The notes under the pieces: generated by a model
What the model was told of the DNA's origin: nothing
The model's input: the letters and a program-made list of their open reading frames with translations, nothing else
Database searches by the model: none
Translations under genes and position numbers: made by a program
Assembly (NCBI GenBank): GCA_021774265.1
Contig: JAJFJG010000138.1
Location: 1-32,201 of the forward strand
DNA length: 32,201 bases
Reading direction: 5' to 3'
Origin: Nitrosomonas sp.
GTDB lineage: Bacteria > Pseudomonadota > Gammaproteobacteria > Burkholderiales > Nitrosomonadaceae
Part shown: piece after piece, positions 1,932 through 27,397 of the stretch
Layout: every line of letters starts with the position of its first letter
Position numbering within the stretch: position 1 is the first letter of the stretch

Positions 1932-3500
1932 ATGAACGAATTTAATAAAAAAATTATAGTTACCAGTATTATTCTGGCTTTTGGTGCATCAGGTAGTGTT
2001 TGGGCGAATCCGACCAATACAGCTACTGATGCTGTTAATCAAACTGCAACTGCTGACAGCAACCAAAGTGGTGTTGGCATAGGAGCCAACGAATTCTCAA
2101 CAGCAGAAGACAATACTGACAACAGCAACAACAGCGATAACAGCAATAACAGCGATAACAGCAACAACAGCGATAACAGTAACAACGGTGACAATAGCGA
2201 CAATAGTCAGATGACTCAGGCTGATGATAACAGCAACAACAGCGATAACAGTAACAACAGCGATAACAGTAACAACAGTGATAACAGCAACAACGGTGAC
2301 AATAGCGACAATAGTCAGATGACTCAGGCTGATGACAACAGTAACAACAGCGATAACAGCAACAACAGCGATAACAGCAACAACAGCGACAACAGCAATA
2401 ACAGCGACAATAGCGACAATAGTCAGATGACTCAGGCTGATGACAACAGCAACAACAGCGACAACAGCAACAACAGCGACAACAGCGACAATAGTCAGAT
2501 GACTCAGGCTGATGACAACAGCAACAACAGCGACAACAGTAACAACAGCGACAACAGCGACAATAGTCAGATGACTCAGGCTGATGATAACAGCAACAAC
2601 AGCGACAATAGTAACAACAGCGACAACAGCAACAACAGTGATAATAGCGACAACAGTCAGTTGACTCAGACTGATGATCATAGTAACAACAGCGACAATA
2701 GCAACAACAGCGACAACAGCAACAACAGTGACAACAGTGACAATAGTCAGATGACTCAGGCTGATGACAACAGCAACAACAGCGACAACAGCAACAACAG
2801 TGACAATAGCGACAACAGCAACAACAGCATCAACAACGCCAACAGCAACAACACTGACAACAGTGCGGCCAATGCAACTGATGCAGCTGCTAATAACGGC
2901 AGTACCGCTACATCAGATCGTTCAGATAACAGCGCTGCAAGTGCTGCTGGAGAAGGTTCTGCAGCTGCGAATAATGGCAGCACCTCAACGGTTGATAACA
3001 GCGATAACAGTGACAACAGTTTTGCGGATGCAAGTGCTGAAGGTTCTGCCGCTGCAAATAATGGCAGTACCTCAACGGTTGACAACAGCGATAACAGTGA
3101 CAATAGCTCAGCAGAAGCAAGTGCTGAAAATTCAGCAGCTGCAAACAATGGCAGCACTGCGATGGTTGATAACACCAATAACAGTGACAACAGCACGACT
3201 GCTGCAAATGGTGATGGATCCGCAGCGGCAAAAAATGGTGATGCAACCGTTAATTACTCGGTTAACAATTCTGACTTGAGTGGCACGGTAACAGGTGCTG
3301 GTGTCGGCGCAATTGTGACTACTGGTGAAGGTGAAGGTAGTGCATCCTTGACTGCTTCAAATAATATTTCTGATTCATTTAATGGAGCGGCAGGTATTAA
3401 CCAAACCGTTCAAAACCATGGCGCCAATGCTTTAACACAACAACAAGTCTCTTTTCAAGGCAACGTGAATGTTAATGCTGCAACTCCTACTATTGACTAA
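1932..3500 (+). CDS. Secreted Asn/Ser/Asp-rich repeat protein, putative major fibre/amyloid-like subunit 1
   Basis: Preferred ATG 1932 with ggaga RBS; signal peptide MNEFNKKIIVTSIILAFGASGSVWA; (NNSDNS)n tract with seven SQMTQADD-type spacers, four AAANNGST repeats, conserved C-terminus FNGAAGINQTVQNHGANALTQQQVSFQGNVNV. Confidence 0.85.
   Translation: MNEFNKKIIVTSIILAFGASGSVWANPTNTATDAVNQTATADSNQSGVGIGANEFSTAEDNTDNSNNSDNSNNSDNSNNSDNSNNGDNSDNSQMTQADDNSNNSDNSNNSDNSNNSDNSNNGDNSDNSQMTQADDNSNNSDNSNNSDNSNNSDNSNNSDNSDNSQMTQADDNSNNSDNSNNSDNSDNSQMTQADDNSNNSDNSNNSDNSDNSQMTQADDNSNNSDNSNNSDNSNNSDNSDNSQLTQTDDHSNNSDNSNNSDNSNNSDNSDNSQMTQADDNSNNSDNSNNSDNSDNSNNSINNANSNNTDNSAANATDAAANNGSTATSDRSDNSAASAAGEGSAAANNGSTSTVDNSDNSDNSFADASAEGSAAANNGSTSTVDNSDNSDNSSAEASAENSAAANNGSTAMVDNTNNSDNSTTAANGDGSAAAKNGDATVNYSVNNSDLSGTVTGAGVGAIVTTGEGEGSASLTASNNISDSFNGAAGINQTVQNHGANALTQQQVSFQGNVNVNAATPTID
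2100..2850 (+). repeat. In-frame DNA tandem repeat coding for (NNSDNS)n with SQMTQADD spacers
   Basis: Repeated aacagcgacaacagcaac units (18 bp) interrupted by gacaatagtcagatgactcaggctgatgac spacers, seven occurrences including one variant SQLTQTDDH. Confidence 0.95.
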
Positions 3501-3686: not shown

Positions 3687-5129
3687 ATGAATCAATTCAA
3701 CAAAAAAATCATCGTTGCAAGTATTATCCTTGCTTTTGGTTCTGCGGGTAATGCCTGGGCAAACCCGACTAATACGGCTGAAACTGCCGAAGATCAAACT
3801 GCGTCCGCTATTAGCGATCAAAATTCTTCTGGCATAGCCGCCAACGAATACTCGGATGCAACGGACAACACTGACAATAGTGATAACACTGATAACAGTG
3901 ATAACACTGATAACAGTGACAACAGCAACAACAGCGACAACAGCAACAATAGCAACAACGCTGTTGCGACAAATACTGATAACAACAGTGACAACAGCAA
4001 CAACAGCGACAACAGCAACACCAGTGACAACAGCAACAACAGCGACAACAGCAACAATAGCAACAACGCTGTTGCGACAAATACTGATAACAACAGTGAC
4101 AACAGCAACAACAGCGACAACAGCAACAATAGCAACAACGCTGTTGTGACAAACACTGATAACAACAGTGATAACAGTAACAACAGTGACAACAGCAACA
4201 ATAGCAACAACAGTGTAGCGACGCATACTGATAACAACAGTGACAACAGCAACAACAGCGACAACAGCAACAATAGCGACAACAGCAACAACAGCAACAA
4301 CAGTGTAGCAACTAACACTGATAACAACAGCGACAACAGCAACAATAGCGACAACAGCAACAATAGTGACAACAGCAACAATAGTGACAACAGTGTTGTG
4401 ATGAATACTGATAACAACAGTGACAACAGCAACAACAGCGACAATAGCAACAACAGCAACAATAGCGACAACAGCACTAATAACACCGACAGTTACAATG
4501 TTGACAGTAGCTCAGCTAGTGCAGTTGATGCTGCCGCCAATAATGCTAGTACCGCTACATCAGATCGTTCAGATAATAGCAGTGCAGATGCTGCTGGGAC
4601 CGGTTCTGCAGCAGCCAACAATGAAAGCACCGCCACTGTCGACAACAGCGACAACAGTGACAATAGTAGTGCAAGCGCTAGTAGTACAGGTGCAGCAGCA
4701 GCTAACAATGAAAGCACCGCCACTGTCGACAACAGCGACAATAGCGACAATAGTAGTGCAAGTGCTAGCGCAGCAGGTTCTGCAGCAGCCAACAATGAAA
4801 GTAGCGCGACTGTTGATAACACTGATAACAGCGACAACAGCTATACAGAAGCTAACGGCGCTGGATCTGCGGCAGCTCAAACTGGCAACGCTACCACCAC
4901 CTACTCGGTTAACAATTCAGCCTTGAGTGGCACTGTAACAGGTGAAGGTGCTGGCGCAGGTGTAACAGTCGCTTCAGGCGCTGGTGATGCTACTTACCAG
5001 GCCGACAACACCATTAGCGGTTCTTTCAATGGTGCTGCCGGCATCAATCAGACTGTTCAGAATCATGCTGCCGATGCTTTGACACAGCAACAAGTGTCTT
5101 TCCAAGGCAACGTAAATGTTAACCCTTAA
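3687..5129 (+). CDS. Secreted Asn/Ser/Asp-rich repeat protein, putative fibre/amyloid-like subunit 2 (paralog)
   Basis: Preferred ATG 3687 with aaggag RBS; signal peptide MNQFNKKIIVASIILAFGSAGNAWA; six (A/S)VATNTDN-type spacers in an NNSDNS tract; AAANNEST repeats; C-terminus FNGAAGINQTVQNHAADALTQQQVSFQGNVNVNP nearly identical to the upstream gene. Confidence 0.85.
   Translation: MNQFNKKIIVASIILAFGSAGNAWANPTNTAETAEDQTASAISDQNSSGIAANEYSDATDNTDNSDNTDNSDNTDNSDNSNNSDNSNNSNNAVATNTDNNSDNSNNSDNSNTSDNSNNSDNSNNSNNAVATNTDNNSDNSNNSDNSNNSNNAVVTNTDNNSDNSNNSDNSNNSNNSVATHTDNNSDNSNNSDNSNNSDNSNNSNNSVATNTDNNSDNSNNSDNSNNSDNSNNSDNSVVMNTDNNSDNSNNSDNSNNSNNSDNSTNNTDSYNVDSSSASAVDAAANNASTATSDRSDNSSADAAGTGSAAANNESTATVDNSDNSDNSSASASSTGAAAANNESTATVDNSDNSDNSSASASAAGSAAANNESSATVDNTDNSDNSYTEANGAGSAAAQTGNATTTYSVNNSALSGTVTGEGAGAGVTVASGAGDATYQADNTISGSFNGAAGINQTVQNHAADALTQQQVSFQGNVNVNP
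3870..4490 (+). repeat. In-frame DNA tandem repeat coding for (NNSDNS)n with AVATNTDN spacers
   Basis: 18 bp aacagcaacaacagcgac units plus the recurring caacgctgttgcgacaaatactgataac spacer. Confidence 0.95.
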
Positions 5130-5257: not shown

Positions 5258-5626
5258 ATGAAATCGATTTTAAAGAGTGGTGTGCTTCTTCTCTTTTCCC
5301 TGGCTTTACCTGTTCACACAGCGATGGCGTTTTCTACTCAGCCGAAGGAGAATGATTTGTTACCTTTTTCTTCAGCAAAAACTGTGTCGATAGATGAACT
5401 TGAAAATGCAAGAGGCCGCGAAGGTGTAGATATAACTGCGCTTAATAACATGAATGTCAGTGCAACATTAAGAGACAACACTGCAAATAATAATGTAACA
5501 GGTGCTAATGTTATTGACACTAGCTCGTTCGCAGGTGCTAGCGGGATGTTCTCTGTGATTCAGAATACCGGCAACAACGTTGTCATCCAGGATTCAACGA
5601 TTGTGAATGTAACCATTCTTCCCTGA
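5258..5626 (+). CDS. Small secreted protein, possible minor fibre component/nucleator
   Basis: Signal peptide MKSILKSGVLLLFSLALPVHTAMA; SIDELENARGREG motif; C-terminus FAGASGMFSVIQNTGNNVVIQDSTIVNV resembles the C-terminal motif of the two large subunits. Confidence 0.75.
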   Translation: MKSILKSGVLLLFSLALPVHTAMAFSTQPKENDLLPFSSAKTVSIDELENARGREGVDITALNNMNVSATLRDNTANNNVTGANVIDTSSFAGASGMFSVIQNTGNNVVIQDSTIVNVTILP

Positions 5627-5679: not shown

Positions 5680-6393
5680 ATGAAATATTTCTACACTAAA
5701 TGCGCTTTGCTCACAATATTTGCATTAATGTGCGGCAAAGCCAATTCTGTTGACCTGAATGATCTTGCAGGCGGGGGTAACTATCATGTTTCGGTAAAAA
5801 GCTTTGCCGAAATGAAATTTAGTACAGTTTATAAGCAGCAATTTGACTTTAGTTGCGGTTCAGCCGCTTTAGCAAGTTTACTTGCTTTTCATTATGACGA
5901 TGAAGTAAATGAGCAGAGTGTATTTCTTGATATGTTTCAACATGGAGATCAGGAGAAGATTAAAGAATTGGGATTTTCATTGCTGGACATGAAAAACTAT
6001 TTGGAACGGCGCGGTTATCGATCTGATGGTTTTAAAATGAAACTGGATCAGTTACACGAAGCAAATGGTCCAGCAATAACCATAATTGATGCAGACGGTT
6101 ACTTGCATTTTATTATTATTAAAGGATTGACGAAGCAGGAAGTGCTTGTTGGTGACCCAGCTATTGGCGTTGATATCATACCCAGAGACAAATTTGAAGA
6201 AATGTGGGGAGATCGCATTCTGTTTATGGTCCATGCTGAAAATGGAATCCAGGCAAAAAACTTTCAAAGTCTGGAGGAGTGGCAGATGCGCATGGCCCCG
6301 GTGGCTAATGCGATTGATCGGAGCAGTTTAGGTGAATACCATGTTTTAATGCGAGGCCAAGCACAAGAGCTTGGTGGTCCTTTAGATTTCTAA
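5680..6393 (+). CDS. Exported C39-family cysteine peptidase (FapD-like)
   Basis: Signal peptide; catalytic motif KQQFDFSCGSAALASLL (Q..C), His in GYLHFIIIKG, Asp in VLVGDPAIGV; no ABC transporter domains. Confidence 0.88.
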   Translation: MKYFYTKCALLTIFALMCGKANSVDLNDLAGGGNYHVSVKSFAEMKFSTVYKQQFDFSCGSAALASLLAFHYDDEVNEQSVFLDMFQHGDQEKIKELGFSLLDMKNYLERRGYRSDGFKMKLDQLHEANGPAITIIDADGYLHFIIIKGLTKQEVLVGDPAIGVDIIPRDKFEEMWGDRILFMVHAENGIQAKNFQSLEEWQMRMAPVANAIDRSSLGEYHVLMRGQAQELGGPLDF

Positions 6394-6403
6394 ATTTAGT
6401 GGG

Positions 6404-6907
6404 ATGTTTAAAATGAGAAAAAACAAGTTAAGCATCTACCAGAAAATATTGAAGGTTATATCTTTATCAATTATTTTTGTAAATGTAAGTTTTTCCAATC
6501 AAGTTTTGGCAGATGAGTCGTTGAACGAGTCTGCTTCTAACAATAATATTTATGCTAACTGGGATAGGGCAACCGACGATGAATTAGCGCAACAAAGAGG
6601 TGGTTTCATGCTTCCAAATGGCGTGATTGTCGATATCAGTCTGGAAAGAATTATTTTCTTAAATGGAGTTGAAACCATTTCATCTTACTTTCAGTTTTCT
6701 GATAATGGTGTTTTGTTACAGAATGGCAGTGAAAATATGGCGCCAGACTCGATTGGCTCAGCATTGAGTTCTGTGATTCAAAATAACCTAGATGATCAGG
6801 CAATAAAAGCCATCAATGAATTTAACATAGAAATAAGTGGTCTGCAGAACGTCGATTTAGACAACCATACTAATACCCTTGATTCTATTTTGCCAATATT
6901 ACAATAA
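6404..6907 (+). CDS. Small secreted protein with ELxxxRGG motif (position equivalent to FapE)
   Basis: N-terminal hydrophobic signal segment ending SNQVLA; DDELAQQRGGFMLPNGVIVDISLERIIFLNG; in-frame start at 6413 also possible. Confidence 0.65.
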   Translation: MFKMRKNKLSIYQKILKVISLSIIFVNVSFSNQVLADESLNESASNNNIYANWDRATDDELAQQRGGFMLPNGVIVDISLERIIFLNGVETISSYFQFSDNGVLLQNGSENMAPDSIGSALSSVIQNNLDDQAIKAINEFNIEISGLQNVDLDNHTNTLDSILPILQ

Positions 6908-7279: not shown

Positions 7280-8614
7280 TTGACAAAAGACTTTAATGAA
7301 ATGTATAAAAAATTTGGCCATATGAATTGTCTTTCTATGAGATTAATCAAGCGCATTATTTTTATCGCTTGTTTTTTTGTTATCAGCGAAAGTTATGCGG
7401 AAACAAATAAGTCAGAAAATTTATTAGAACAATATAGACAACTTCTTTCTGAGCAAGAAAAAAAGTTTGAGGCGCAACGCCAGATTCTTAATCAGCAAGG
7501 CAAAGAATTAGAACAATTAAGAAAAAATATTGATACGCTTTCTAACCAGGCGCCAGGTGCCGCAGAAAAAGCAAGTTCACCGTCACAAACGACGACATCG
7601 GCCGCCAACAAAGATGAAACAGGAAAAACACCTGATCAGCCGCCTTCTGGGCCTGTCGGTCAAGCGCCACCAAAGCCAAAGGAGCCTGAACGTCCACCCG
7701 AAATGCCCAGACTTACTGAAACGGTTGGCGGCGTTTTAACAAGAAAGGGCAATATCGTTGTTGAGCCGGCGCTAAGCTATTCCTTTGCCGGCAACAATCG
7801 CGTTTTTGTGGATGCGTTCACATTTTTACCTGCCATTACTATCGGCCTTACTGACATTCGTCAAGTAAAGCGACATAGTATTTTTGCCAGCCTTGGTTTG
7901 CGTTATGGCGTAACAAGTCGTCTTGAAGTGGAAGCCAGGGTTCCTTATGTCTATCGTGCTGATATCCAGCGAGCTCGACCTTTTAATATTGGTGTTGCTA
8001 ATGACCAAGTTTTTAATGCGGACGGAAGCGACATCGGAGATCTTGAGTTCACTGCCCGTTACCAGTTGTCAAATGGCTCAGGTGGCTGGCCTATACTGGT
8101 GGGTAATATGCTTACAACGGTTCCGACAGGAAAGAGTCCCTTTGATCTCAAATTTGAAGAGACATCAATAGAAGGTACGCCATTCAGATTTCCTATAGAA
8201 GTACCAACCGGAACAGGTTTTTTTACCTTCCAACCCAGCTTAACCGCACTGTATCCAACCGCTCCCGCAGTTTTTTTCGGAAATCTCAACTATACTTATA
8301 CGATGAGTACCAACGAAAATATAGGCAAGGTCGATGCAGGCGATGCCGTGGGTATGACTTTTGGCATGGGGTTTTCGGTTAATAATCGGACATCATTTAA
8401 TTTAGGGTACTCACATCGACATTTTTTTAATACAAAAATTGATGGCGATAAAATAGGTGGTAGTGCGCTGGATATTGGACAATTATTGTTGGGTTATTCA
8501 TTCAGATATTCTAAACAGACTAATTACAACTTGTCGGTGGGCGTAGGCACGACTGACAATGCGCAAGATGTGAGTCTTAATTTTAGAATGCCGATGAATT
8601 TTTCAATTTTCTAA
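7280..8614 (+). CDS. Outer-membrane beta-barrel exporter with N-terminal coiled coil (FapF-like)
   Basis: ORF opens with TTG; ATG at 7322 or 7337 gives a better signal peptide (MRLIKRIIFIACFFVISESYA). Heptad-rich LLEQYRQLLSEQEKKFEAQRQILNQQGKELEQLRKNIDTL, Pro-rich linker, then alternating aromatic/hydrophobic beta strands ending MPMNFSIF (terminal Phe). Confidence 0.78.
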   Translation: MTKDFNEMYKKFGHMNCLSMRLIKRIIFIACFFVISESYAETNKSENLLEQYRQLLSEQEKKFEAQRQILNQQGKELEQLRKNIDTLSNQAPGAAEKASSPSQTTTSAANKDETGKTPDQPPSGPVGQAPPKPKEPERPPEMPRLTETVGGVLTRKGNIVVEPALSYSFAGNNRVFVDAFTFLPAITIGLTDIRQVKRHSIFASLGLRYGVTSRLEVEARVPYVYRADIQRARPFNIGVANDQVFNADGSDIGDLEFTARYQLSNGSGGWPILVGNMLTTVPTGKSPFDLKFEETSIEGTPFRFPIEVPTGTGFFTFQPSLTALYPTAPAVFFGNLNYTYTMSTNENIGKVDAGDAVGMTFGMGFSVNNRTSFNLGYSHRHFFNTKIDGDKIGGSALDIGQLLLGYSFRYSKQTNYNLSVGVGTTDNAQDVSLNFRMPMNFSIF

Positions 8615-9321: not shown

Positions 9322-12225
9322 ATGAAAAAACAAGTAAAGTTCCTCAGTCCTGATACTAAAGCGATTAAATCAGATACTAAGTCTAGCGCTGAAACGGATA
9401 TATTTCCGGTTGTTGGTATTGGCGCTTCTGCGGGTGGACTGAACGCATTCACACAATTACTCCATGCGCTACCAGTGAATACAGGCATGGCTTTCATTTT
9501 GGCGCAGCATCTCGACCCCAAACATGCCAGTCTGCTGCCTGAATTGATGACGCGAGTAACCGTCATGCCAGTCATCGAAGCGAGTGATGGTCTACACATC
9601 GAGCGCAATCACATTTATGTGATGCCATCAACGCATAGCCTAACACTATTAAATGGTGTTTTGCACTTGATACAGCGTCCGGAAGGACGTGAGAAATATC
9701 TACCAATTGATGATTTTTTAAATAGTCTTGCGCAAGATCGAAAGAATAGTGCCATTGGCGTTATTCTTTCAGGCGTAGCCTCTGATGGAACACTAGGTTT
9801 GCAGGCAATCAAGTCGGCTGGCGGTATCACTTTTGCACAAAGTGAGGGTTCTTGTGAATTCAGTGATATGCCGCACAATGCAATCACAGCAGGTCATGTA
9901 GATTTCATCCTAACACCAGAAGAAATTGCCAGAAAACTAGCATTAATTGCGCACTACCCTTACCTAAAGTATCCGTTGCTGAATGTCGAACCGAGAGCAA
10001 CAATCCAAGAAGATGAAGAACTCAAAAAGATTTTCCTACTATTACACGAACATAACGGCATTGATTTTACCAATTACAAGAGAAATACCATTTTGCGTCG
10101 CGTCAAACGACGCATGACAGTGCATCAGCTGGATAGAATGATCGATTACATCAAGTTTCTGCAGATACATCCACAAGAACAGGATAAATTATTTAAGGAC
10201 ATGCTAATCAACGTCACAAGTTTTTTTCGTGATCCGGAAACTATTGAGGCGCTCAAGAAAGAAGTTTTTCCTCAAATTATACAACAAAACTCCAATGAAA
10301 AAGCAATACGTATTTGGATACCGGCTTGTTCCACAGGTGAAGAAGCCTACTCAGTGGCAATCGCATTATTTGAATTTCTCGGCATTCAAGCCAACACCGT
10401 GTATATTCAAATCTTCGCTTCCGATATTGATAAACAATCAATCGACAAGGCACGCCAAGGTATTTATTCACAAAGTATTGATGGAGTCGTTAGTTCGGAG
10501 CGGTTGCAACAGTTTTTTGTCAAAAAAAACTCTAGTTACCAGATATGTCAAGCCATACGTGATGTCTGCGTTTTTGCGGTTCAAAATGCTTTAGAGGATC
10601 CACCTTTCTCACGGCTTAATCTGATCTGTTGTCGTAACTTAATGATTTACTTTAATATAAATTTGCAAAAAAAAATATTGCAAATTTTTTACTATGCTTT
10701 ACGCCCCAATAGTTTCTTAATGTTGGGCGCTTCAGAAACTATTGGTAGCGAAACGAATCTTTTCTCTCTTGTCGATAAGAAGAATAAGATCTATATTTGC
10801 AAACCAAATGTAGCCCAACCACGCTTCCGTTCTACCCAGCCAAGTTACACGGAACGGCGGTTTCCTGAGTATCTTTCCGATACGACGACCAAGTCTTCTG
10901 CTGCAGTCATTGTTCAACAGACAGCTGATGATATCATTCTGAGGACGTATGCCCCACCGAGTGTAATTATTGATCAGAGCATGCAGATACACCATTTTCG
11001 TGGACAAACAAACCCCTACATCGAACCATCAACTGGTGGCGCTAGCCTCAATTTATTAAAAATGGCACGTCAAGAACTAGTGATGGAGCTACGCGTGCTT
11101 GTGCGTAAAGCCATAACGGAAAACTGCAGCATGCGTAAGGAAGGTATACGTATAAGTTATAACAATACTTGTAAATATATAAATTTGCAGGTAACGCCTC
11201 TCTTCAACCCGGAAGTAGTTGCGCCATACTATTTAATAGTATTTGAACCTGTTGTTAAAATCATGCCTCAGTCCAGTAATTTGTCAACAGAAGTTAAAAA
11301 TAAAGATGCCAACGGAAAGACATTGTATATCAAAGAATTAAAAGATGAGCTGGCTGCCGAGCGAGAATACATGCAGTCAATTATTGAGGAGCGCGAAGAA
11401 ATAAATGAAGAATTGCAATCCGCTAATGAAGAAGTCCTGTCCACTAATGAAGAGCTGACTGCAATCATTGAAGAGCATGATAGTCGCTATCAAGAGTTAA
11501 GCGTCCTTAACAATGATCTAACTAATTTTCTGGTGAGTATTGATATCGCCATTGTTATTTTGCACAATGATCTGATTATCCAGCGCTTTACGCCACTAGC
11601 AAAACCACTGCTAAATCTTCTTGATGCCGACATCGGGAAGAGTATCGAGAATATTCGTCCAAATGTTAATATTCCCGATTTTAAAAGGCATATACAGCAG
11701 GTGATGAAAACTGCTCTAATAAAAACTCTGGAAGTACAAGATACTGACGGGCATTGGTACGATTTACGAATACATCCATGCTGGACACAAAACAATCATG
11801 TTAGCGGCGTAGTAATTGTGCTTATTGATATTGACAGCATCAAGCGGCATGCCGAACAGCTAAGCAAGGCACTGCAACATGAAAAACGCTTGGCTGCAAT
11901 GATACGCGACTCCAACGACGCTGTGACTGTGCAGGATTTTTTAGGTCATATCTTGGCCTGGAACGAAGGCGCAACGAAGATATTTGGTTATAACGAAAAA
12001 GAATCGCTGTTGATAGAAGCTGACACGCTAATTCCAGATGAATTGCTAAAGGAAATGCATGCTTGCATAGAACAACTTAAACAAGGCGAGAACGTAGCGC
12101 CCTTTAAAACTAAGCGTCGCGCTAAGGATGGTCGTTTACTCAATGTATGGATGACTATTTCATTATTGCTTGACGAAATGGGCAAACCATACGCTATGAT
12201 CATTACTGAAAGGGAGTTAACATGA
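9322..12225 (+). CDS. CheB methylesterase-CheR methyltransferase-PAS hybrid protein
   Basis: CheB: VVGIGASAGGLNAFTQLL, AQHLDPKH, GVILSGVASDGTLGL; CheR: LINVTSFFRDPE, IWIPACSTGEEAYSVAI, LICCRNLMIYF; long coiled coil EEREEINEELQSANEEVLSTNEELTA; C-terminal PAS domains; no N-terminal REC domain. Confidence 0.92.
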   Translation: MKKQVKFLSPDTKAIKSDTKSSAETDIFPVVGIGASAGGLNAFTQLLHALPVNTGMAFILAQHLDPKHASLLPELMTRVTVMPVIEASDGLHIERNHIYVMPSTHSLTLLNGVLHLIQRPEGREKYLPIDDFLNSLAQDRKNSAIGVILSGVASDGTLGLQAIKSAGGITFAQSEGSCEFSDMPHNAITAGHVDFILTPEEIARKLALIAHYPYLKYPLLNVEPRATIQEDEELKKIFLLLHEHNGIDFTNYKRNTILRRVKRRMTVHQLDRMIDYIKFLQIHPQEQDKLFKDMLINVTSFFRDPETIEALKKEVFPQIIQQNSNEKAIRIWIPACSTGEEAYSVAIALFEFLGIQANTVYIQIFASDIDKQSIDKARQGIYSQSIDGVVSSERLQQFFVKKNSSYQICQAIRDVCVFAVQNALEDPPFSRLNLICCRNLMIYFNINLQKKILQIFYYALRPNSFLMLGASETIGSETNLFSLVDKKNKIYICKPNVAQPRFRSTQPSYTERRFPEYLSDTTTKSSAAVIVQQTADDIILRTYAPPSVIIDQSMQIHHFRGQTNPYIEPSTGGASLNLLKMARQELVMELRVLVRKAITENCSMRKEGIRISYNNTCKYINLQVTPLFNPEVVAPYYLIVFEPVVKIMPQSSNLSTEVKNKDANGKTLYIKELKDELAAEREYMQSIIEEREEINEELQSANEEVLSTNEELTAIIEEHDSRYQELSVLNNDLTNFLVSIDIAIVILHNDLIIQRFTPLAKPLLNLLDADIGKSIENIRPNVNIPDFKRHIQQVMKTALIKTLEVQDTDGHWYDLRIHPCWTQNNHVSGVVIVLIDIDSIKRHAEQLSKALQHEKRLAAMIRDSNDAVTVQDFLGHILAWNEGATKIFGYNEKESLLIEADTLIPDELLKEMHACIEQLKQGENVAPFKTKRRAKDGRLLNVWMTISLLLDEMGKPYAMIITERELT

Positions 12226-13436
12226 GTCAGAACAACAAAAAAAGAAGGATGGATGATGAATTACGCAGCAAATTAGAGCTTATTAGCGACCTTCAGGTTC
12301 ATAAAACAGAGCTGGAGGCACAAAATCAAGAACTTAAGGAAGCACAGCAAGAATTAGAAATAGCACGTGATCGCCATGTAGATCTCTATGATTTTGCGCC
12401 TATAGGTTATCTTACTTTGGACAAATTCGGTTGTGTTCAGTCAATTAATCTGACTGGTGCAACTTTGCTTGGTGTACATCGCCAATACATCATCGGTAAA
12501 CCCCTGCTGACCTGTCTTCCTAAAGTTGACAGCAATGCTTTTCTTCACTATTTAAAGGGAATCTTTAATTCGTCCAGTAACACTGTAATCGAATTAACTA
12601 TCACAGACTCAAACCAAGTAGAGAAGCATCTTCGTCTGGTAAGCTCATTGATCAGCAATGGCGGTTCTTGCCGTATGGTGATATCTGATATTACTCAGCT
12701 CAAAGAAACCGCACAACGAAATCAAGAATTGTTGCTTGAAAATCGGCGACTGTTGCAAAATCTATATAAAATCCAAGAAAAAGAACGACGTGTGTTAGCA
12801 CATGAGTTACACGATGAACTCGGCCAATGGCTTTCCGCTATTCATGCTGAAGCTGAAATTATTTGCAGCTCCCTTGGCGATAATTCTGTCGTCCAAGAGA
12901 GTGCGGCATCTATTAAAGAGTCTGTCAATGAAATGCATATAGTGATACGCAGTATGCTGCATAAATTATGTCCCGCGCTACTGGATGCACTTGGGTTAAA
13001 GGATTCGTTGCTTGATTTGAGGGATAAATGGTGTGTACATCATGCTAATATTACCCTCGAATTTAAGCTAAAAGGCAAGCTTGATGATTTAGACGGGCAT
13101 ATTAACATTACGGTTTACCGTATCGTTCAGGAGGCACTCACCAATATCTACAGACATGCCGACGCTACCCAGGCAAGTGTTAACTTGCATCGTATCGGCG
13201 ATAAGAATTCTGAAACGGATTATTTGTTACTGAGCGTGCAAGATAATGGCAAAGGGTACGATACCAGCAAAAAGCCCAGTGGACTGGGACTATTGGGTAT
13301 GCGTGAGCGCGTAATCGCAGTGGGCGGTGAACTTATGGTGCGCAGTATATCAAATGATGGAACGCAGATTGATATCAAATTGCCGCTTAGCGCTGTAAGC
13401 TATAACAGAAGAGCCGAGGACAAAAAACAAATATGA
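12222..13436 (+). CDS. Soluble PAS-domain HisKA_3 (NarX/LuxR-type) sensor histidine kinase
   Basis: PAS-like DFAPIGYLTLD; HisKA_3 LAHELHDELGQWLSAI; HATPase VQDNGKGYDTSKKPSGLGLLGMRERV; no TM segment seen; ATGA overlap with upstream gene. Confidence 0.9.
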   Translation: MSQNNKKRRMDDELRSKLELISDLQVHKTELEAQNQELKEAQQELEIARDRHVDLYDFAPIGYLTLDKFGCVQSINLTGATLLGVHRQYIIGKPLLTCLPKVDSNAFLHYLKGIFNSSSNTVIELTITDSNQVEKHLRLVSSLISNGGSCRMVISDITQLKETAQRNQELLLENRRLLQNLYKIQEKERRVLAHELHDELGQWLSAIHAEAEIICSSLGDNSVVQESAASIKESVNEMHIVIRSMLHKLCPALLDALGLKDSLLDLRDKWCVHHANITLEFKLKGKLDDLDGHINITVYRIVQEALTNIYRHADATQASVNLHRIGDKNSETDYLLLSVQDNGKGYDTSKKPSGLGLLGMRERVIAVGGELMVRSISNDGTQIDIKLPLSAVSYNRRAEDKKQI

Positions 13437-14086
13437 TACAAGAACCCATCACTTTGATGCTTGTCGATGACCATCCCATAGTGCGATCCGGTTTTTGTCG
13501 CTTACTTGAAGGACAAAAGAATTTTCAGGTTGTCGCAGAAGCTGGCGACGGCGAAACCGGCTGTATCCTATATCAAGAATTTAAGCCAGATATATTGATT
13601 CTTGATCTTAGCTTGCCAGGCATAACTGGTATCGAAACCATTTCTCGTATTAAGGAGCAAGATGAAGCTGCTCGTATACTGATATTTTCCATGCATAATA
13701 ACAAAACCATGCTAAGCAAAGCGCTAAAAGCTGGGGCATTAGGCTACGTTACCAAAAATAGTGGCATTAAAGTTCTGGTTGAGGCAATTACTCAGATAAA
13801 AGCAGGGAAGTTATATGTTAGCGCTGACTTACTTGCTAACGATACCAATGATTCATTAATTACGGATTTTCAGTATAATCCATTAAGCGTGCTTACTGAG
13901 CGAGAATTTCAGATATTCAAGTTACTCGCAGAGGGAAACTCCTGCAGGAAAATTGCAGATCGCATTGCTATCAGCCCGAAAACTGTCAGCGTTCATCATA
14001 CCAATATTATGAAGAAATTAGATCTGCATAATCCTGTTCAATTGATTCATCTAGCAATCAAAAATAACATTATTCCCCTAGACTAG
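13433..14086 (+). CDS. NarL/FixJ-family response regulator
   Basis: REC domain LMLVDDHPIVRSGFCRLL, DILILDLSLPG; LuxR HTH LTEREFQIFKLLAEGNSCRKIADRIAISPKTVSVHHTNIMKKL; ATGA overlap with upstream kinase. Confidence 0.93.
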   Translation: MIQEPITLMLVDDHPIVRSGFCRLLEGQKNFQVVAEAGDGETGCILYQEFKPDILILDLSLPGITGIETISRIKEQDEAARILIFSMHNNKTMLSKALKAGALGYVTKNSGIKVLVEAITQIKAGKLYVSADLLANDTNDSLITDFQYNPLSVLTEREFQIFKLLAEGNSCRKIADRIAISPKTVSVHHTNIMKKLDLHNPVQLIHLAIKNNIIPLD

Positions 14087-17362: not shown

Positions 17363-17755
17363 ATGGCTTTATCAAATCAGGTGTTCATCAGTTTTGCTTT
17401 AAAAGATGTTGCGTTGAGAGACACACTGGAAGAGCAGATAGGTAAAATAAATACAAAAATGAAATGTGTTGATATGCCAATGAAAAAATCATGGGAAAGT
17501 GCTTGGAAAGCAGAGACCATGGAAACAGTTAGAGGTTGCGATGGTGTCATAGCGATTATTTCAGAGAGTATTGTTAGGGCGGATGGCCAAGTGTGGGAGT
17601 TGCGTTGTGCTTATGATTCTGGCTTGCCTGTATTATTGGTTTTTGCCAAAGAGGCAGAAGACATGCGTGAAAAAGATCTACCCGAGTTGATCAGAGAAAA
17701 AGATATTGCTAAATGGGATGAAATGGTTATCTCAATGTTTCTGAATAAGTTATAA
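17363..17755 (+). CDS. TIR-like domain protein (DUF1863/ThsB-like)
   Basis: QVFISFALKDVALRDTLEEQI; W..AW..E..ETVRGCDGVIAIISES; DGQVWELRCAYDSGLPVLLVF, with Glu in the WELR motif corresponding to the usual TIR alpha-C glutamate. Confidence 0.7.
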   Translation: MALSNQVFISFALKDVALRDTLEEQIGKINTKMKCVDMPMKKSWESAWKAETMETVRGCDGVIAIISESIVRADGQVWELRCAYDSGLPVLLVFAKEAEDMREKDLPELIREKDIAKWDEMVISMFLNKL

Positions 17756-21429: not shown

Positions 21430-22596
21430 TTATTCAGGCTTCAACACTCGCCGAATATTCTCCAACACCGTCATAATCGTATGACGTGGCGCTCCAATAT
21501 TCAAACGCATAAACCCGCTACCCTCTTTTCCAAACAGAGTGCCAGGACTCAGACCAACACCCGCTTCATGGACCAAGAAACGTTTGAGTTCTGCGTCGTT
21601 CATGTTCAATCCACGACAATCCAGCCATAAGAGGTAAGTGCCTTCTGATGGGGTGAGTTTTATTTGTGGGAGGTGTTCTGTCAGATAAGCTTGCACGCAA
21701 TCGCGTGTGTCGCTCAGATAAACTAATAAGTTATCCAGCCAAGGTTCGCCTTCCCGGTACGAGGCCTCAAAGGCGGCGATGCTGAATGGGTTGGAGGCGC
21801 TGATGTGCATGGCGTCAAATACTTTGGAAATTTTTTTGCGTGCTTCCGGGTTGGGGATGATTAGTGTGGATAGGTTGAGGCCGGGGATGTTGAATGTTTT
21901 GCTGGGTGTGATGGCGGTCAAGATATTTGCTGTGTTGTCAGTTAACGTGGCAAGCGAATGATGCTGGTTACCGGGGTAGATTAAGTCTGCGTGAATTTCG
22001 TCTGAAAATATCATCAAGTCATATTGTTCTGAAATTTGCAGCAGGCGTTCTAGCTCTTGTTTGTTCCATACTCGCCCTACAGGATTATGCGGTGAGCAGA
22101 GCAGGAGTAGATGGGCTGCTTTCGCGCATTGTTCCAAGTGGTCGAAATCAATGGTGTATTTGCTGTCTAAATAATGCAGCGGGTTTTCAACTAGCTTTCT
22201 GCCGGTCTGTGTTGCGGCTGAGAAGAATGGGAAATAGACTGGGGGTTGAATGATGATGGATTCACTGGGTTGGGTGAAGGCCATAGCTGCGGCATTCAGT
22301 GATGGTACGACGCCGGGGCACATGACGATCCAGTCGCGTTGAATTTCCCAGTGGTGGCGTCGTTTTAGCCAGTCGATGATAGATTCATACAGGCAGTCTG
22401 GGTAGATGGTGTAGCCATAAATTGGGTGGTTGGCGCGCTCAATCAGTGCTTGCGTGACGGCTGGGGGGGCGGCAAAGTCCATGTCTGCCACCCACGCAGG
22501 GATAACGTCGGCTTTGCCAAAAATATCTTGTCGCGCATCATATTTTACGCTGTGTGTTCCATCGCGACTGATGTCGTGGTCAAAGCCAATACTCAA
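21430..22596 (-). CDS. ovoB: PLP-dependent C-S lyase, MalY/PatB family; probable ovothiol beta-lyase OvoB
   Basis: VIPAWVADMDFAAPPAV, CSPHNPVGRVW, FSDEIHADLIYPG, TPSKTFNIPGL (PLP Lys); overlaps the ovoA stop. Confidence 0.82.
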   Translation of the reverse strand: MSIGFDHDISRDGTHSVKYDARQDIFGKADVIPAWVADMDFAAPPAVTQALIERANHPIYGYTIYPDCLYESIIDWLKRRHHWEIQRDWIVMCPGVVPSLNAAAMAFTQPSESIIIQPPVYFPFFSAATQTGRKLVENPLHYLDSKYTIDFDHLEQCAKAAHLLLLCSPHNPVGRVWNKQELERLLQISEQYDLMIFSDEIHADLIYPGNQHHSLATLTDNTANILTAITPSKTFNIPGLNLSTLIIPNPEARKKISKVFDAMHISASNPFSIAAFEASYREGEPWLDNLLVYLSDTRDCVQAYLTEHLPQIKLTPSEGTYLLWLDCRGLNMNDAELKRFLVHEAGVGLSPGTLFGKEGSGFMRLNIGAPRHTIMTVLENIRRVLKPE

Positions 22597-24707
22597 GTAA
22601 TTTTCTCCCAGATGGTGGCTTCAGCCAGGGTATGCTGGTATTTGCGCTTGGTTTCTCGAATTACAAACGGTACGGCTTGCGGGCCTTGGATGAGTCTGAA
22701 ATGTTTACCCAAGGCTTCTTTTAGGCCGTCTAACGTGGTGAAGTTTTCACCGTCACGTTTATAGCCGCCGACCCACGCTTCTTTCTTTGTGTGTTCTTCC
22801 AGCCAGGTATAAGGTGAGGTGATCATCAGTAAACCGCCGGTGTTGATTCTTTCGTGGATGACGTTGAGGAATTTAGCGGGGTTGTACAGGCGGTCAATCA
22901 AGTTCGCCGCGAGAATCAAATCATAGCCGGCATGAATGGATTTTAGGTTGCAGGCATCGCCTTGGAAAAATTCCACTTTGTCTTTGATGTGCTCAAGCCC
23001 CAGCCCTGTTAATGTGCGTTCTTTATAGGAAACCAATTCACCTTCGTCGGTGAGGGTGTAGCGCAAAATACCTTGTTGCGCTAGTTGTACACCTTGACCT
23101 ATAAAGCGTGCGGAGAAATCAACGCCGGTGACATGTTCAAAATGACGAGCCAGTTCAAAGGTTGAACGCCCTGACGCACAGCCGAGATCAAATGCTTTAC
23201 GCGCAGGACGGTCGCTCATGGCGGCAATGGCAATTTCGGCCAATGTTTTGGGGAAATTAGGTACGTCAAAATAAGTATCGCCATAGTGAAACTCAGCGTA
23301 CTCAGACAATAGTTTATCGGTTTCGTAGTTAGAGCTTTCTAGAATAGCGGGTGTATCAGTCATTACGTAGCGGAATCCAGCATGTTGAAAAAAATGTCGG
23401 CGGAAGGCGTAACGTGCGCTTTTGAGTGATTCATTGCCGCAGGCAATCCAAGAGCCGCCTTTAATAAGATTATGTTGACTATCGAAAGTTGGGGTAGTGA
23501 AGTCGTCATAATGCGGGTGAACATCAAACCCCTCAAATGGGTAAGTTGGTGTTTCGACCCATTGCCAGACGTTGCCCACGATGTCGAAGAATTCACCTTG
23601 CTGGAATTCAGTTACTGGGCAGCTGGAATTATAGTGATCCAGATGAAGATTGCCCGCTGCGGGTGCGTCATGTGGCACTTCAGACAGGTTTGCGACATCA
23701 TACAAGCGATACCATTCATCTTCCGTCGGCAAACGAATTGGCTGCTTGCTGGTGGTCGATTTCCAGCTGCAGAAAGCTTTGGCTTCATGGTAATTTACGT
23801 CAACTGGCCAGTCCCATGGCATGGCGATTTCTTCAGTCATCACACGTAGTTGCCAGCTAGTGCCTTTTTTGACCCAAAATGTTGGGTGCTCAGCGCCGAT
23901 ATGCCGTTGCCAAGCACGACCTTCTTCTTGCCAATAACTTTCAGTGGAATAGCCATTGGCTTCAACAAAAGCTAAGAACTCTTGGTTGCTAACTAGGTAT
24001 TTACTGGCTTGGAAAGCGGGGATATCAGCAGCATGATTGCCATATTCATTGTCCCAGCCATAATGTTTCTGGGTTGCTTTGTTTTCGCCAATTTGTACCT
24101 TGCCTGCAGCTACATTAATGAGCTCGTTTTTAGGTGCGATGCTGGATTTCTTGCAGGGTTGCCAATCTTTATGCGATTGAACATATTCAAGTTTGTGTTG
24201 ACGAATTAAAACCGAGGAGGTTTCTAGGTGAATACGTTCATGCTCAATCCCCATCAAGATGGTCCACCAAGGGCTTTCCCAAGTGATGGGTAATGATAGT
24301 GGTAAATCGGTGATGAGTTGATCTACCGTTTGACGGATGATATTGCGGTATGCGTGGACGGCTTCGACGGCAGGCCAGTCGTAATGGGTGGTGTCCAAGT
24401 CATCCCAGCTCATTTCATCAACACCAACGGCAAAAATGGATTCCATTTTTGGGTCAATGCGTTTTGGAATGATACCTGCTAGAACTAGCTTGTTAACAAA
24501 AAAAGTGGCTGTGTGTCCCAGATAAAAAATTAGCGGGTGGCGCAGTGAAATGGGCTTTTTGTAATACGCTTCATCGCTACTGAGTGTCTCAAAAAGTAGT
24601 TCGTAGCAATCCAATGTATTGTGGAAGTAAGACCGTATTTCCTCACGTTTTGCACTGATATCGCTTCCGTAGAGTATAGGTGTTCTTTTGCAGCGTAAAT
24701 GTGGCAT
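22593..24707 (-). CDS. ovoA: 5-histidylcysteine sulfoxide synthase / mercaptohistidine N-methyltransferase
   Basis: DinB-like HPLIFYLGHTATFF and IEHERIHLETSS; FGE-sulfatase domain LPTEDEWYRLY, GNVWQWVETP, LIKGGSWIACGNE; C-terminal methyltransferase AFDLGCASGRSTFELA. Confidence 0.93.
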   Translation of the reverse strand: MPHLRCKRTPILYGSDISAKREEIRSYFHNTLDCYELLFETLSSDEAYYKKPISLRHPLIFYLGHTATFFVNKLVLAGIIPKRIDPKMESIFAVGVDEMSWDDLDTTHYDWPAVEAVHAYRNIIRQTVDQLITDLPLSLPITWESPWWTILMGIEHERIHLETSSVLIRQHKLEYVQSHKDWQPCKKSSIAPKNELINVAAGKVQIGENKATQKHYGWDNEYGNHAADIPAFQASKYLVSNQEFLAFVEANGYSTESYWQEEGRAWQRHIGAEHPTFWVKKGTSWQLRVMTEEIAMPWDWPVDVNYHEAKAFCSWKSTTSKQPIRLPTEDEWYRLYDVANLSEVPHDAPAAGNLHLDHYNSSCPVTEFQQGEFFDIVGNVWQWVETPTYPFEGFDVHPHYDDFTTPTFDSQHNLIKGGSWIACGNESLKSARYAFRRHFFQHAGFRYVMTDTPAILESSNYETDKLLSEYAEFHYGDTYFDVPNFPKTLAEIAIAAMSDRPARKAFDLGCASGRSTFELARHFEHVTGVDFSARFIGQGVQLAQQGILRYTLTDEGELVSYKERTLTGLGLEHIKDKVEFFQGDACNLKSIHAGYDLILAANLIDRLYNPAKFLNVIHERINTGGLLMITSPYTWLEEHTKKEAWVGGYKRDGENFTTLDGLKEALGKHFRLIQGPQAVPFVIRETKRKYQHTLAEATIWEKIT

Positions 24708-24949
24708 AAGGTTGATTTTTTTGTTTCTTCAATATTGATTTGCCAAGCATTATACCGTTTCAAGCTATGGATTTCACTGGCAATGTCTTTGTGGGTTTAT
24801 ATCACTAACGTGAATGGCATATTAATACTGTTTTAGATTGGGGTTTCGCTTGTGGTGAATGTAAGGGTTTGAGCTGTTATTATGAACGTTAGTGTAAGGA
24901 AAAACGAGTGTGCTCGACTAATGATAAATTTTTAAAATTTCTCGTCATT

Positions 24950-25636
24950 ATGAAAAATTCAGAAGTCCTGGTTTTAGTATGTAAGCAACCCAAGCTCGGA
25001 TTTGGAAAACAGCGTTTGTCTGCTAGTTTAGGTGTAGAGATGACGCAACGCGTAGCTGAAGCATTATTAAACTGTGCGTTAGAAGACTTACGAAGCTGGG
25101 TGGGTTCGGTTGTGATTGCGCCGTCATCCCAGGAAGATGTTGAGTGGGCTGCTTCATTAGTGCGCCAGCCGAATGTTTATGTGCAGCCACAGATGCAGGG
25201 TAATTTAGGCCAACGGTTGAATACGTTAGATTTTGAATTGCGCAGCAAAGGGATGAAACGGTTGATATATATCGGCAGTGACTCGCCGGGACTGATTGAA
25301 GCAGATTATGCCGCTGTATGTGACGCGATGCAGCATCATGATGTGGCGTTGATGCCAGCAATAGATGGTGGCGTTGTATTGATGGCAAACAATCGTCCTT
25401 GGCCACTTTTAACAGACTTGCCATGGAGTTCAAATCAATTGGGAAATGCATTGATGGACTGTTGCCGTGATGAGGGTCAATCGGTTGCTACTTTAGATGA
25501 AAGTTTTGATATTGATGAGTTGGCAGACCTGGTTAAATTAATTGAAGTATTGGAGGATGATCCACGACCTGCACGCAGTATATTGCGTCAGCTAGCAAGC
25601 GACATTACTTCTATAGTGGGAGTAAATCATGCTTAG
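24950..25636 (+). CDS. DUF2064/TIGR04282 transferase 1, rSAM/selenodomain-associated
   Basis: VLVCKQPKLGFGKQRLSASLG, YIGSDSPGL, DGGVVLMA; ATG 4th methionine at 24950 preferred over the 24908 start. Confidence 0.8.
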   Translation: MKNSEVLVLVCKQPKLGFGKQRLSASLGVEMTQRVAEALLNCALEDLRSWVGSVVIAPSSQEDVEWAASLVRQPNVYVQPQMQGNLGQRLNTLDFELRSKGMKRLIYIGSDSPGLIEADYAAVCDAMQHHDVALMPAIDGGVVLMANNRPWPLLTDLPWSSNQLGNALMDCCRDEGQSVATLDESFDIDELADLVKLIEVLEDDPRPARSILRQLASDITSIVGVNHA

Positions 25637-26318
25637 CTTTAGTGTCATAATTCCTTGTTATCGTGATGAAGATAAATTGGCGTATTTACTATATCAATTG
25701 CATCAATTACCCAGGGGCCCGGAAGAAATTATTGTTATCGATGGTGCTGATAGCGAGCGTTGTCGTGAAATCTGTAATCAATATTCGGTGCACTGGCTGA
25801 CAAGTGAGCCTTGTCGTGGGGAACAATTACGTGCAGGTGCTGCATTAGCTAAAGGTGAAGTGCTGTGGTTTTTGCATGCGGATGCACGTTTTTCAAAAGA
25901 GTCATTAGGTGCAATGACATCGGCTCTTGAGCAGGGTGCTGTCGGTGGTTATTTTCGTTTTCGCTTTGATGTCCCACGTACTTGGCCTGCTTTAATATTG
26001 GAGCCAGCAATTGCGCTACGTTGTCGCTATGGTGTTCCCTATGGTGATCAGGGTATTTTTGTGTTGCGGGAAATTTATAAGAAAGCGGGAGGGCATGGTC
26101 CTTGGCCTTTATTTGAAGAGGTGCCTTTGGTACGCCGGGTGAGGCGACTTGGCCATTTTCAGTCGCTGCGCGAGCCTATATTAGTAGATCCCTGCCGTTG
26201 GCAACAGGATGGATGGTGGCGACGGACTTGGAAAAATCGTCAGTTAGCATTGAACTTTGCGCGTGGCGTTGCGCCCAATGAATTGGCTTCACGTTACGGT
26301 TCGGATTCTCATTTCTAA
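25629..26318 (+). CDS. TIGR04283-like glycosyltransferase family 2, transferase 2 rSAM/selenodomain-associated
   Basis: FSVIIPCYRDEDKL, PCRGEQLRAGAALAKGEVLWFLHADARF; overlaps the upstream gene. Confidence 0.85.
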   Translation: MLSFSVIIPCYRDEDKLAYLLYQLHQLPRGPEEIIVIDGADSERCREICNQYSVHWLTSEPCRGEQLRAGAALAKGEVLWFLHADARFSKESLGAMTSALEQGAVGGYFRFRFDVPRTWPALILEPAIALRCRYGVPYGDQGIFVLREIYKKAGGHGPWPLFEEVPLVRRVRRLGHFQSLREPILVDPCRWQQDGWWRRTWKNRQLALNFARGVAPNELASRYGSDSHF

Positions 26319-26351
26319 ATACAAAATATAACTTCAATGATAAGGATTGTC

Positions 26352-27395
26352 ATGAAAGAGGATGTTCAAAAATATTATGGTGAAACACTCAGTAATACGC
26401 AGGATTTGCAAACTAATGCCTGCTGTACAGATTCGGATTTACCCGGATTTGTAAAGCCATTACTGGCTCAAGTTCATGATGAAGTGTTGACGCGTTATTA
26501 CGGCTGCGGTTTGGTTTTACCTGAATTATTGGAAGGCTTAACTATTTTGGATCTTGGTTGTGGTGCAGGACGCGATGTTTATGTGCTTTCTCAATTGGTC
26601 GGTGAGCAGGGCCAAGTTATTGGTGTGGATATGACTGCTGAGCAGTTGGCTGTTGCACGTCAACATGAAGCGCATCACCAAGAAGTTTTTGGCTTTAGTC
26701 GCAGTAATGTGCGTTTTCTGCATGGCTACATTGAACACCTAGATGAGCTTGAGCTGGTAGATAATAGTGTGGATATTATTGTCTCGAATTGTGTGATTAA
26801 CTTAGCTTCTGATAAAGGTGCTGTATTGCGTGAAGCGCTACGTGTATTAAAGCCGGGCGGAGAGTTATATTTCTCAGATGTTTATAGTGATCGACGTATT
26901 CCATTTGCATTAACACAAGATCCCGTGTTGTATGGTGAATGCTTGGGTGGTGCATTGTATTGGAATGATTTTTTGCAGTTGGCACAGAAATCTGGCTTTA
27001 TGGATCCGCGCTTAGTTGAAGACCGCCCTATCACGATTGATAACGATGAATTGGCTGCACGGACAGGCAACATTCGTTTTTATTCTGCGACGTATCGTTT
27101 ATTCAAATTAAATAATCTTGAGCTGGCTTGCGAGGATCATGGTCAGTCTGTGATTTATAAGGGCACAATTCCGCATCATCCCCACGTATTTGTGCTGGAT
27201 AAACATCACACCATTGAGGCGGGTAAACAGTTTCAGGTCTGTGGCAATACATGGCGTATGTTGCATGACACACGCTTCAAAGAACACTTCGATTTTTACG
27301 GCAATTTTGATAATCACTACGGTATTTTTCCGGGTTGCGGTATGGGTATTCCGTTTAATGATAGTGCTGGCGAACAAAAGGGTGGGTGCTGCTAG
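26352..27395 (+). CDS. arsM: Arsenite S-adenosylmethionine methyltransferase-like protein
   Basis: ILDLGCGAGRDVYVLSQLVG, VSNCVINLASDKGAVLREALRVLKPGGELYFSDVYSDRR, YGECLGGALYW; Cys residues at ArsM-like positions, N-terminal NACC, C-terminal GGCC. Confidence 0.85.
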   Translation: MKEDVQKYYGETLSNTQDLQTNACCTDSDLPGFVKPLLAQVHDEVLTRYYGCGLVLPELLEGLTILDLGCGAGRDVYVLSQLVGEQGQVIGVDMTAEQLAVARQHEAHHQEVFGFSRSNVRFLHGYIEHLDELELVDNSVDIIVSNCVINLASDKGAVLREALRVLKPGGELYFSDVYSDRRIPFALTQDPVLYGECLGGALYWNDFLQLAQKSGFMDPRLVEDRPITIDNDELAARTGNIRFYSATYRLFKLNNLELACEDHGQSVIYKGTIPHHPHVFVLDKHHTIEAGKQFQVCGNTWRMLHDTRFKEHFDFYGNFDNHYGIFPGCGMGIPFNDSAGEQKGGCC

Positions 27396-27397
27396 TG

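Follow-up and report, generated by a model that had tools for sequence, protein, structure and literature searches.

The window analysed here, i.e. the whole stretch of DNA under study (32,201 nucleotides from Nitrosomonas sp.), carries near its start a gene cluster that encodes, in this order, a repeat protein (A), its paralogue (B), a small protein of 122 aa, a FapD-like periplasmic C39 peptidase, another small protein of 167 aa and a FapF-like outer-membrane barrel. Protein A (1932..3500, + strand; ORF of 522 aa starting with ATG), a predicted fibre or matrix subunit according to its ORF and composition, successively displays a signal-like N-terminus, a conserved segment (NPTNTA...GANEFS), a tract rich in N, S and D, a series of about four repeats of 29 aa and, at the C-terminus, a conserved module. 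The predicted Sec signal peptide of A extends to about aa 26 (1932..2009, + strand; MNEFNKKIIVTSIILAFGASGSVWA followed by N); all signal peptides, including this one and its cleavage site (between ...VWA and NPTN), were assigned by eye. Paralogue B (3687..5129, + strand; 480 aa), recognised from its ORF and by sequence comparison, has the same architecture with spacers such as NNAVATNTDN and is 70% identical to A in the matched part. No third copy of A or B was found in the genome. Searches of Pfam and NCBIfam with A, B, their C-terminal modules and the family of the 122-aa protein gave no meaningful family, and searches of PDB sequences with A and the profiles A3 and A4 returned chance-level matches alone (OspA, GAFP-1).

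Downstream genes encode a CheB/CheR/PAS protein, a UhpB-like histidine kinase and a NarL-type response regulator (9322..14086, + strand; Pfam and NCBIfam). As the locus is accompanied by relatives of the kinase and/or of the regulator in five further genomes of Nitrosomonas, in some cases on its opposite side, they are plausible regulators of the locus, and all three proteins are probable, putative regulators of it. The remainder of the window includes a small ORF (17363-17755, + strand), whose N-terminus VFISFALKD resembles TIR/SEFIR-like or toll-type domains and which has no NCBIfam match at E 1e-20. It also includes ovothiol genes (21430-24707, - strand), encoding OvoA (a 5-histidylcysteine sulfoxide synthase with a methyltransferase domain, above cut-off for both TIGR04344 and TIGR04345) and then a PatB-family C-S lyase. 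Finally, a cluster resembling those for arsenosugar biosynthesis (24908-28324, + strand) comprises a glycosyltransferase of the TIGR04282 type (below cut-off), another ORF resembling a glycosyltransferase, a methyltransferase similar to ArsM and a radical SAM protein.

The tract of A (aa 62-311; 2115..2864, + strand), delimited by its composition and predicted to be disordered, consists of (N/D)NS triplets arranged in NNSDNS hexapeptides. Its 250 residues, a length that could be wrong because the draft assembly (220 contigs) may have collapsed repeats, include 95 N, 65 S and 48 D (83% N/S/D), neither K/R nor aromatic residues, and bear a net charge of -48. The hexapeptide NNSDNS is found 22 times; in 2000 shuffled versions of the tract, it appears 0.165 times on average and at most twice. 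The runs are interrupted by spacers, all on the + strand and read from the sequence: SQMTQADDN for spacers 1 to 5 and 7, which start at aa 92 (2205..2231), 128 (2313..2339), 164 (2421..2447), 188 (2493..2519), 212 (2565..2591) and 272 (2745..2771), and a variant, SQLTQTDDH, for spacer 6 at aa 242 (2655..2681). The initial annotation had proposed a secreted, modular, low-complexity protein with a very acidic tract of N/S/D hexapeptides and seven spacers, one of them variant, and the present data agree with it on all these points. It did not include the neighbouring paralogue B, the 29-aa repeat block, the conserved C-terminus or the export locus located downstream. Its statement that K/R and aromatic residues are lacking holds for the tract and not for the whole protein, which contains 3 K, 1 R, 6 F, 1 Y and 1 W, the single Trp being located in the signal peptide. 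Its 48 Asp among 250 residues and its lack of basic ones make the tract a possible, putative binder of divalent cations; no RTX or dockerin calcium motif was seen by eye. The hexapeptide repeats of left-handed beta-helices were also considered for NNSDNS and rejected, as the unit includes no aliphatic residue.

Between copies, the DNA of the tract differs almost exclusively by silent changes of the third codon base (AAC/AAT for Asn, AGC/AGT for Ser), two Ser-to-Gly changes being seen in 65 triplets; the copies are not independent for this comparison owing to repeat homogenisation. Between species, the N-terminus, the 29-aa block and the C-terminal module of A are kept and the tract is not: it is rewritten from one species to another according to the same plan, i.e. 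(N/D)NS runs broken by short pieces of alternating polarity. These pieces are QMTQA in A, VATNT in B, VQNIA, VASVA, VLTTA or QVSMT in other Nitrosomonas, and DVAVS or LDVAI in Colwellia. The spacers are short beta-strand-like pieces, as judged from their residues, whose presence is conserved and whose sequence is not. NSD-rich tracts with such spaced pieces are found in most orthologues, including those of distant gammaproteobacteria, which implies that a function of composition and length is kept. In Colwellia, N, S and D account for up to 0.69 of the large protein. The spacer-bearing tract appears to have been assembled anew, and separately, in several lineages. In Paraglaciecola and N. nitrosa, repeats of the 29-aa type are interspersed with the tract, which suggests that the tract derives from an expanded DNSDNSDNS loop of these repeats.

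The block of about four 29-aa repeats (GSAAANNGSTSTVDNSDNSDNS type; aa ~317-441; 2880..3254, + strand), recognised by TRF, self-identity and AlphaFold2, is the candidate beta core of A. Indeed, TRF detects a period of 87 nt, self-identity at lag 29 is robust, at 0.59 for A and 0.59-0.61 over A and B, and the AlphaFold2 model of A displays weak beta strands about 29 residues apart between residues 324 and 440 (pLDDT 55-70). The confidence of this model is low overall (pTM 0.34) and a fold search with it against the PDB gave no match with E below 5; for both reasons, a beta-solenoid made of the 29-aa repeats stays hypothetical. The conserved C-terminal module (3255..3497, + strand; ...SFNGAAGINQTVQNHGANALTQQQVSFQGNVNV), defined by alignment across beta- and gammaproteobacteria and by its homology to the 122-aa protein, is almost unchanged between Nitrosomonas and Colwellia (TAGINQNVQNLGNNALTQQQVSFQGNVNVN). 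The homology between the modules of A/B and the 122-aa family reaches 96.5% in hhalign (E 7e-10). The module also weakly matches the last FapB repeat (score of 23.2 vs 14.8 for the best of 30 shuffles), and profile comparison with FapC repeats is not significant (12.2 vs up to 16.0 for shuffles).

The 122-aa small subunit (5258..5626, + strand) carries, according to alignments, a signal peptide, a C39-type leader (SIDELENARGREG) and the module shared with A and B. AlphaFold2 gives it no fold (mean pLDDT 58.8), which says nothing about its fibre state. The 167-aa protein (6404..6907, + strand; alignments) is FapE-like and also has a C39-type leader (ATDDELAQQRGGF). The leaders of C39 (double-glycine) substrates end in E-L-x(3)-x-G-G or a similar motif, after which the mature part begins, a pattern found as DELENARGREG in the 122-aa protein and as DELAQQRGGF in the 167-aa protein. 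In 37 small proteins, the L is invariant and the G is present in at least 90%; nearly all recognised homologues of the 167-aa protein have ELxxxRGGF, and relatives from Oxalobacteraceae and related Burkholderiales have canonical LxxLRGG leaders (LAELRGGT or LQDLRGGF). The two small-protein families match one another (96.4%, score of 56.4 vs a shuffle maximum of 16.9). The FapE proteins of apparent fap operons carry a conserved ELxxMRG[RK][FY] segment (ELSGMRGRF, ELNLMRGRY or VLAQMRGKF). The 167-aa family aligns with them over 37 columns around the leader alone (E=2.4e-6; 43.6 vs a shuffle maximum of 16.7), these operons having been picked by full-length model score and by FapB/FapC repeats (eye, pattern), with none above the curated FapD cut-off. 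FapD is known to require its catalytic cysteine and FapE was found to be N-terminally processed, the target of FapD being left open and Fap proteins being described as devoid of a canonical C39 site (Rouse and colleagues, PMC5557850). By its resemblance to a C39 leader, the ELxxMRG[RK][FY] segment of FapE is a candidate FapD cleavage site, and the leader motif predicts the exact sites where FapD-type peptidases would cut.

The peptidase itself (5680..6393, + strand) is a FapD/FilB-like C39 protein (Pfam PF03412, E=1.3e-18) that, like FapD, has a signal-like N-terminus. It matches the FapD model NF058616 with E=9.9e-38 and 129.6 bits; as the cut-off is 330, it should be considered a FapD homologue and not an equivalog. 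Its match to the FilB model is similarly placed (E=2.9e-36, 125 bits, cut-off 475). Residues C59, H143 and D159 are invariant in 14 aligned sequences. The outer-membrane transporter (7280..8614, + strand, the true start being possibly a later codon) consists of a coiled-coil N-terminus and a barrel. It is assigned through the NCBIfam FapF model NF058560 (E=6.6e-35, 120.7 bits, cut-off 700), and its residues 155-440 match the solved FapF structure 5o67 (E=1e-20). In the four genes besides A and B, dN/dS vs the nearest relative ranges from 0.08 to 0.26.

The close C39 gene was found in 18 of 125 Nitrosomonadaceae genomes and a distant one alone in five others; the locus is absent from most of the genomes of this family that were searched. 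The order small protein, C39 peptidase, 167-aa protein and FapF-like barrel is kept in the 15 Nitrosomonas loci compared and in three from Methylobacter, with one or two N/S/D-rich proteins encoded upstream. The same genes are found in Kineobactrum, Paraglaciecola and Colwellia, where the barrel (fapF) is encoded on the strand opposite to the others. Some Nitrosomonadaceae also carry a second C39 and barrel arrangement, in which the distant C39 gene (~35% identity) lies about 4 kb downstream of several genes for short secreted proteins that have an [ML]DxxTAG motif in common; these look like another family of C39 substrates. The distant loci were set aside, given their different arrangement, their MDxVTAG leaders and their lack of NSD proteins.

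Because the adjoining genes resemble the machinery that exports the biofilm amyloid of Pseudomonas, A and B are probably the building blocks of a surface fibre or matrix that has so far not been described. More precisely, we consider, with a probability of about two in three, that Nitrosomonas has a fibre or matrix system of Fap-like (FapD/FapF) type, of which they would be the major secreted subunits. This reading builds on what the sequences show directly: how they are organised and conserved, the homologies of the C39, FapF-like and C-terminal modules and the selection acting on the machinery genes. Several results count against it: the FapD and FapF scores fall under the curated cut-offs, the three-repeat FapC core is missing, the beta strands are predicted with little confidence, AlphaFold2 does not fold the 122-aa protein, no PDB fold resembles the model, and most of the Nitrosomonadaceae genomes searched lack the locus. 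According to their signal-like N-termini, A, B and the 122-aa and 167-aa proteins would cross the inner membrane by Sec. The conservation of the motif suggests that the periplasmic C39 peptidase would then trim the leaders of the 122-aa and 167-aa proteins at DELxxxRGR/RGG, and homology suggests that the FapF-like barrel would export the subunits unfolded. Outside the cell, in what is the least certain step, A and B could assemble through their C-terminal module and 29-aa repeats into a small core of cross-beta or beta-solenoid type. The 122-aa protein, which has the same module, would nucleate this core in the manner of CsgB and perhaps FapB. The NNSDNS tract would stay unfolded and constitute a brush that is charged, hydrophilic and able to hold water, corresponding to the variable FapC linkers. 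A broader and tentative proposal is that ammonia oxidisers, methanotrophs and marine gammaproteobacteria share a Fap-like branch of 'brush' fibres. In these, a minimal beta core of 29-aa repeats and terminal module would be sheathed by long, acidic, polyampholyte-free (N/D)NS loops evolving by composition and spacing and not by sequence, and FapD-type C39 peptidases would cut double-glycine-like leaders of FapE-type and nucleator-type proteins.

The tract could be given other roles. One is that of a stalk or glycosylation scaffold, with sugars on its serines (and NxS sequons) as on the serine-aspartate (SD) repeats of staphylococcal surface proteins; the protein would then display or coat and not form a fibre core. 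Staphylococcal SD repeat proteins carry a long acidic low-complexity Ser/Asp tract that probably acts as an extended stalk, and the composition of the tract of A appears near that of these SD repeats. Granules in which ammonia oxidisers abound also hold a glycosylated amyloid-like protein, although a tryptophan-rich one unlike A (PMC6291783). However, none of the genes recognised in the locus encodes a glycosyltransferase, A has no cell-wall anchor, and an export context of FapF type speaks for a fibre that is assembled, so that this role taken alone is unlikely; it can be compatible with a Fap-like fibre. It would be just as improbable that the whole protein is amyloid or prion-like, its Asn-rich hexapeptides stacking into the fibre core and its spacers forming the turns. 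High Asn content does resemble that of prion-like sequences, and the spacers alternate polar and non-polar residues in the manner of beta-strands. However, one residue in five is an Asp devoid of counter-charge, which should oppose stacking. The structure prediction that the initial annotation had advised, run with AlphaFold2 (18 sequences), moreover gives the tract a pLDDT of ~35 and no strands. This absence of strands, together with the turnover of the tract sequence between species, in contrast to the conserved 29-aa block and C-terminus, makes the tract unlikely to be the amyloid or solenoid part of the protein. The suggestion of a secreted matrix polymer, possibly amyloid, is therefore favoured by the FapD-like and FapF-like neighbours and loses ground as far as the tract is concerned, and a beta-solenoid, if present, is more likely to involve the 29-aa repeats. 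Finally, a neutral, microsatellite-like expansion of a DNSDNS loop, tolerated outside the core, would fit the loop sequence of the 29-aa repeats, the nested periods shown by TRF and spacers homogenised within a protein and different between species, as unequal recombination would give, but is improbable given the almost solely silent variation inside the tract and the recurrence of such tracts in most orthologues.

If A and B are indeed subunits of a Fap-like fibre, the locus is a candidate gene set for an amyloid-like matrix in ammonia oxidisers, which often aggregate in wastewater. Granules dominated by these bacteria yielded an amyloid-like, glycosylated, hydrogel-forming and tryptophan-rich protein to which no gene was assigned (PMC6291783). 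A direct link with A is not supported, because A is Trp-free outside its signal peptide. No mention of FapC together with Nitrosomonas was found in the literature searched, and the main text of the N. mobilis Ms1 transcriptome paper does not mention the genes of the locus. The leader motif makes the published question of the FapD substrate testable, and the tracts provide a natural series of low-complexity polymers that keep composition and spacing while their sequence changes, which is useful for work on disordered brushes and hydrogels.

Among known systems, staphylococcal SD repeat proteins differ from A, which has Gram-negative export, no cell-wall sorting signal, (N/D)NS units and putative beta repeats adjoining the tract. 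Curli share with the Nitrosomonas locus a small subunit proposed as nucleator, and the curlin repeat Q-x-G-x-x-N is reminiscent of the QNxGxNxxxQ of the C-terminal module of A. However, the transporter is FapF-like and not CsgG, and A, B, the small proteins and the barrel gave neither a curlin repeat by Pfam at E up to 1 nor a CsgG match. The Fil system of Acinetobacter, a putative pilus, likewise associates a C39 peptidase with a FapF-like protein (FilC), but the FapF model fits the Nitrosomonas barrel far better than that of FilC (E=1.1e-9, 38 bits, cut-off 630). The closest system is Fap of Pseudomonas, encoded by fapABCDEF (PMC3792158, PMC5557850, PMC12392863). Both have a periplasmic C39 peptidase, a FapF-type trimeric-barrel transporter or its homologue, secreted N/Q/S-rich subunits encoded in one cluster with two related subunit genes, and a protein at the FapE position with a matching leader. 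FapC also offers a precedent for long, length-variable disordered stretches around a core, since its linker 2 measures between 35 and 259 residues, the periphery of the fibres being softer where linkers are longer (PMC12392863). By contrast, FapB and FapC usually have three ~39-aa repeats with the motif GN.G.N.aaG..NqQN, which the Nitrosomonas subunits lack. The latter are dominated by N/S/D, have 29-aa repeats and are accompanied by a separate leader-bearing small subunit of 122 aa; by eye, no ORF of the locus was recognised as a candidate for FapA, a chaperone that Fap systems often lack. As the three-repeat FapC core is missing and the C39 and barrel scores are below the FapD and FapF cut-offs, the locus is not a strict member of the Fap system; its predicted substrates are a variant outside known Pfam/NCBIfam families. 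Co-located fapD and fapF homologues were reported from five additional phyla, the main text of that report not describing their substrates (Rouse and colleagues, PMC6173800). The Nitrosomonas locus is one such pair, and its substrates, identified here by sequence, supply concrete candidates for at least one group of these orphan fapD-fapF pairs.
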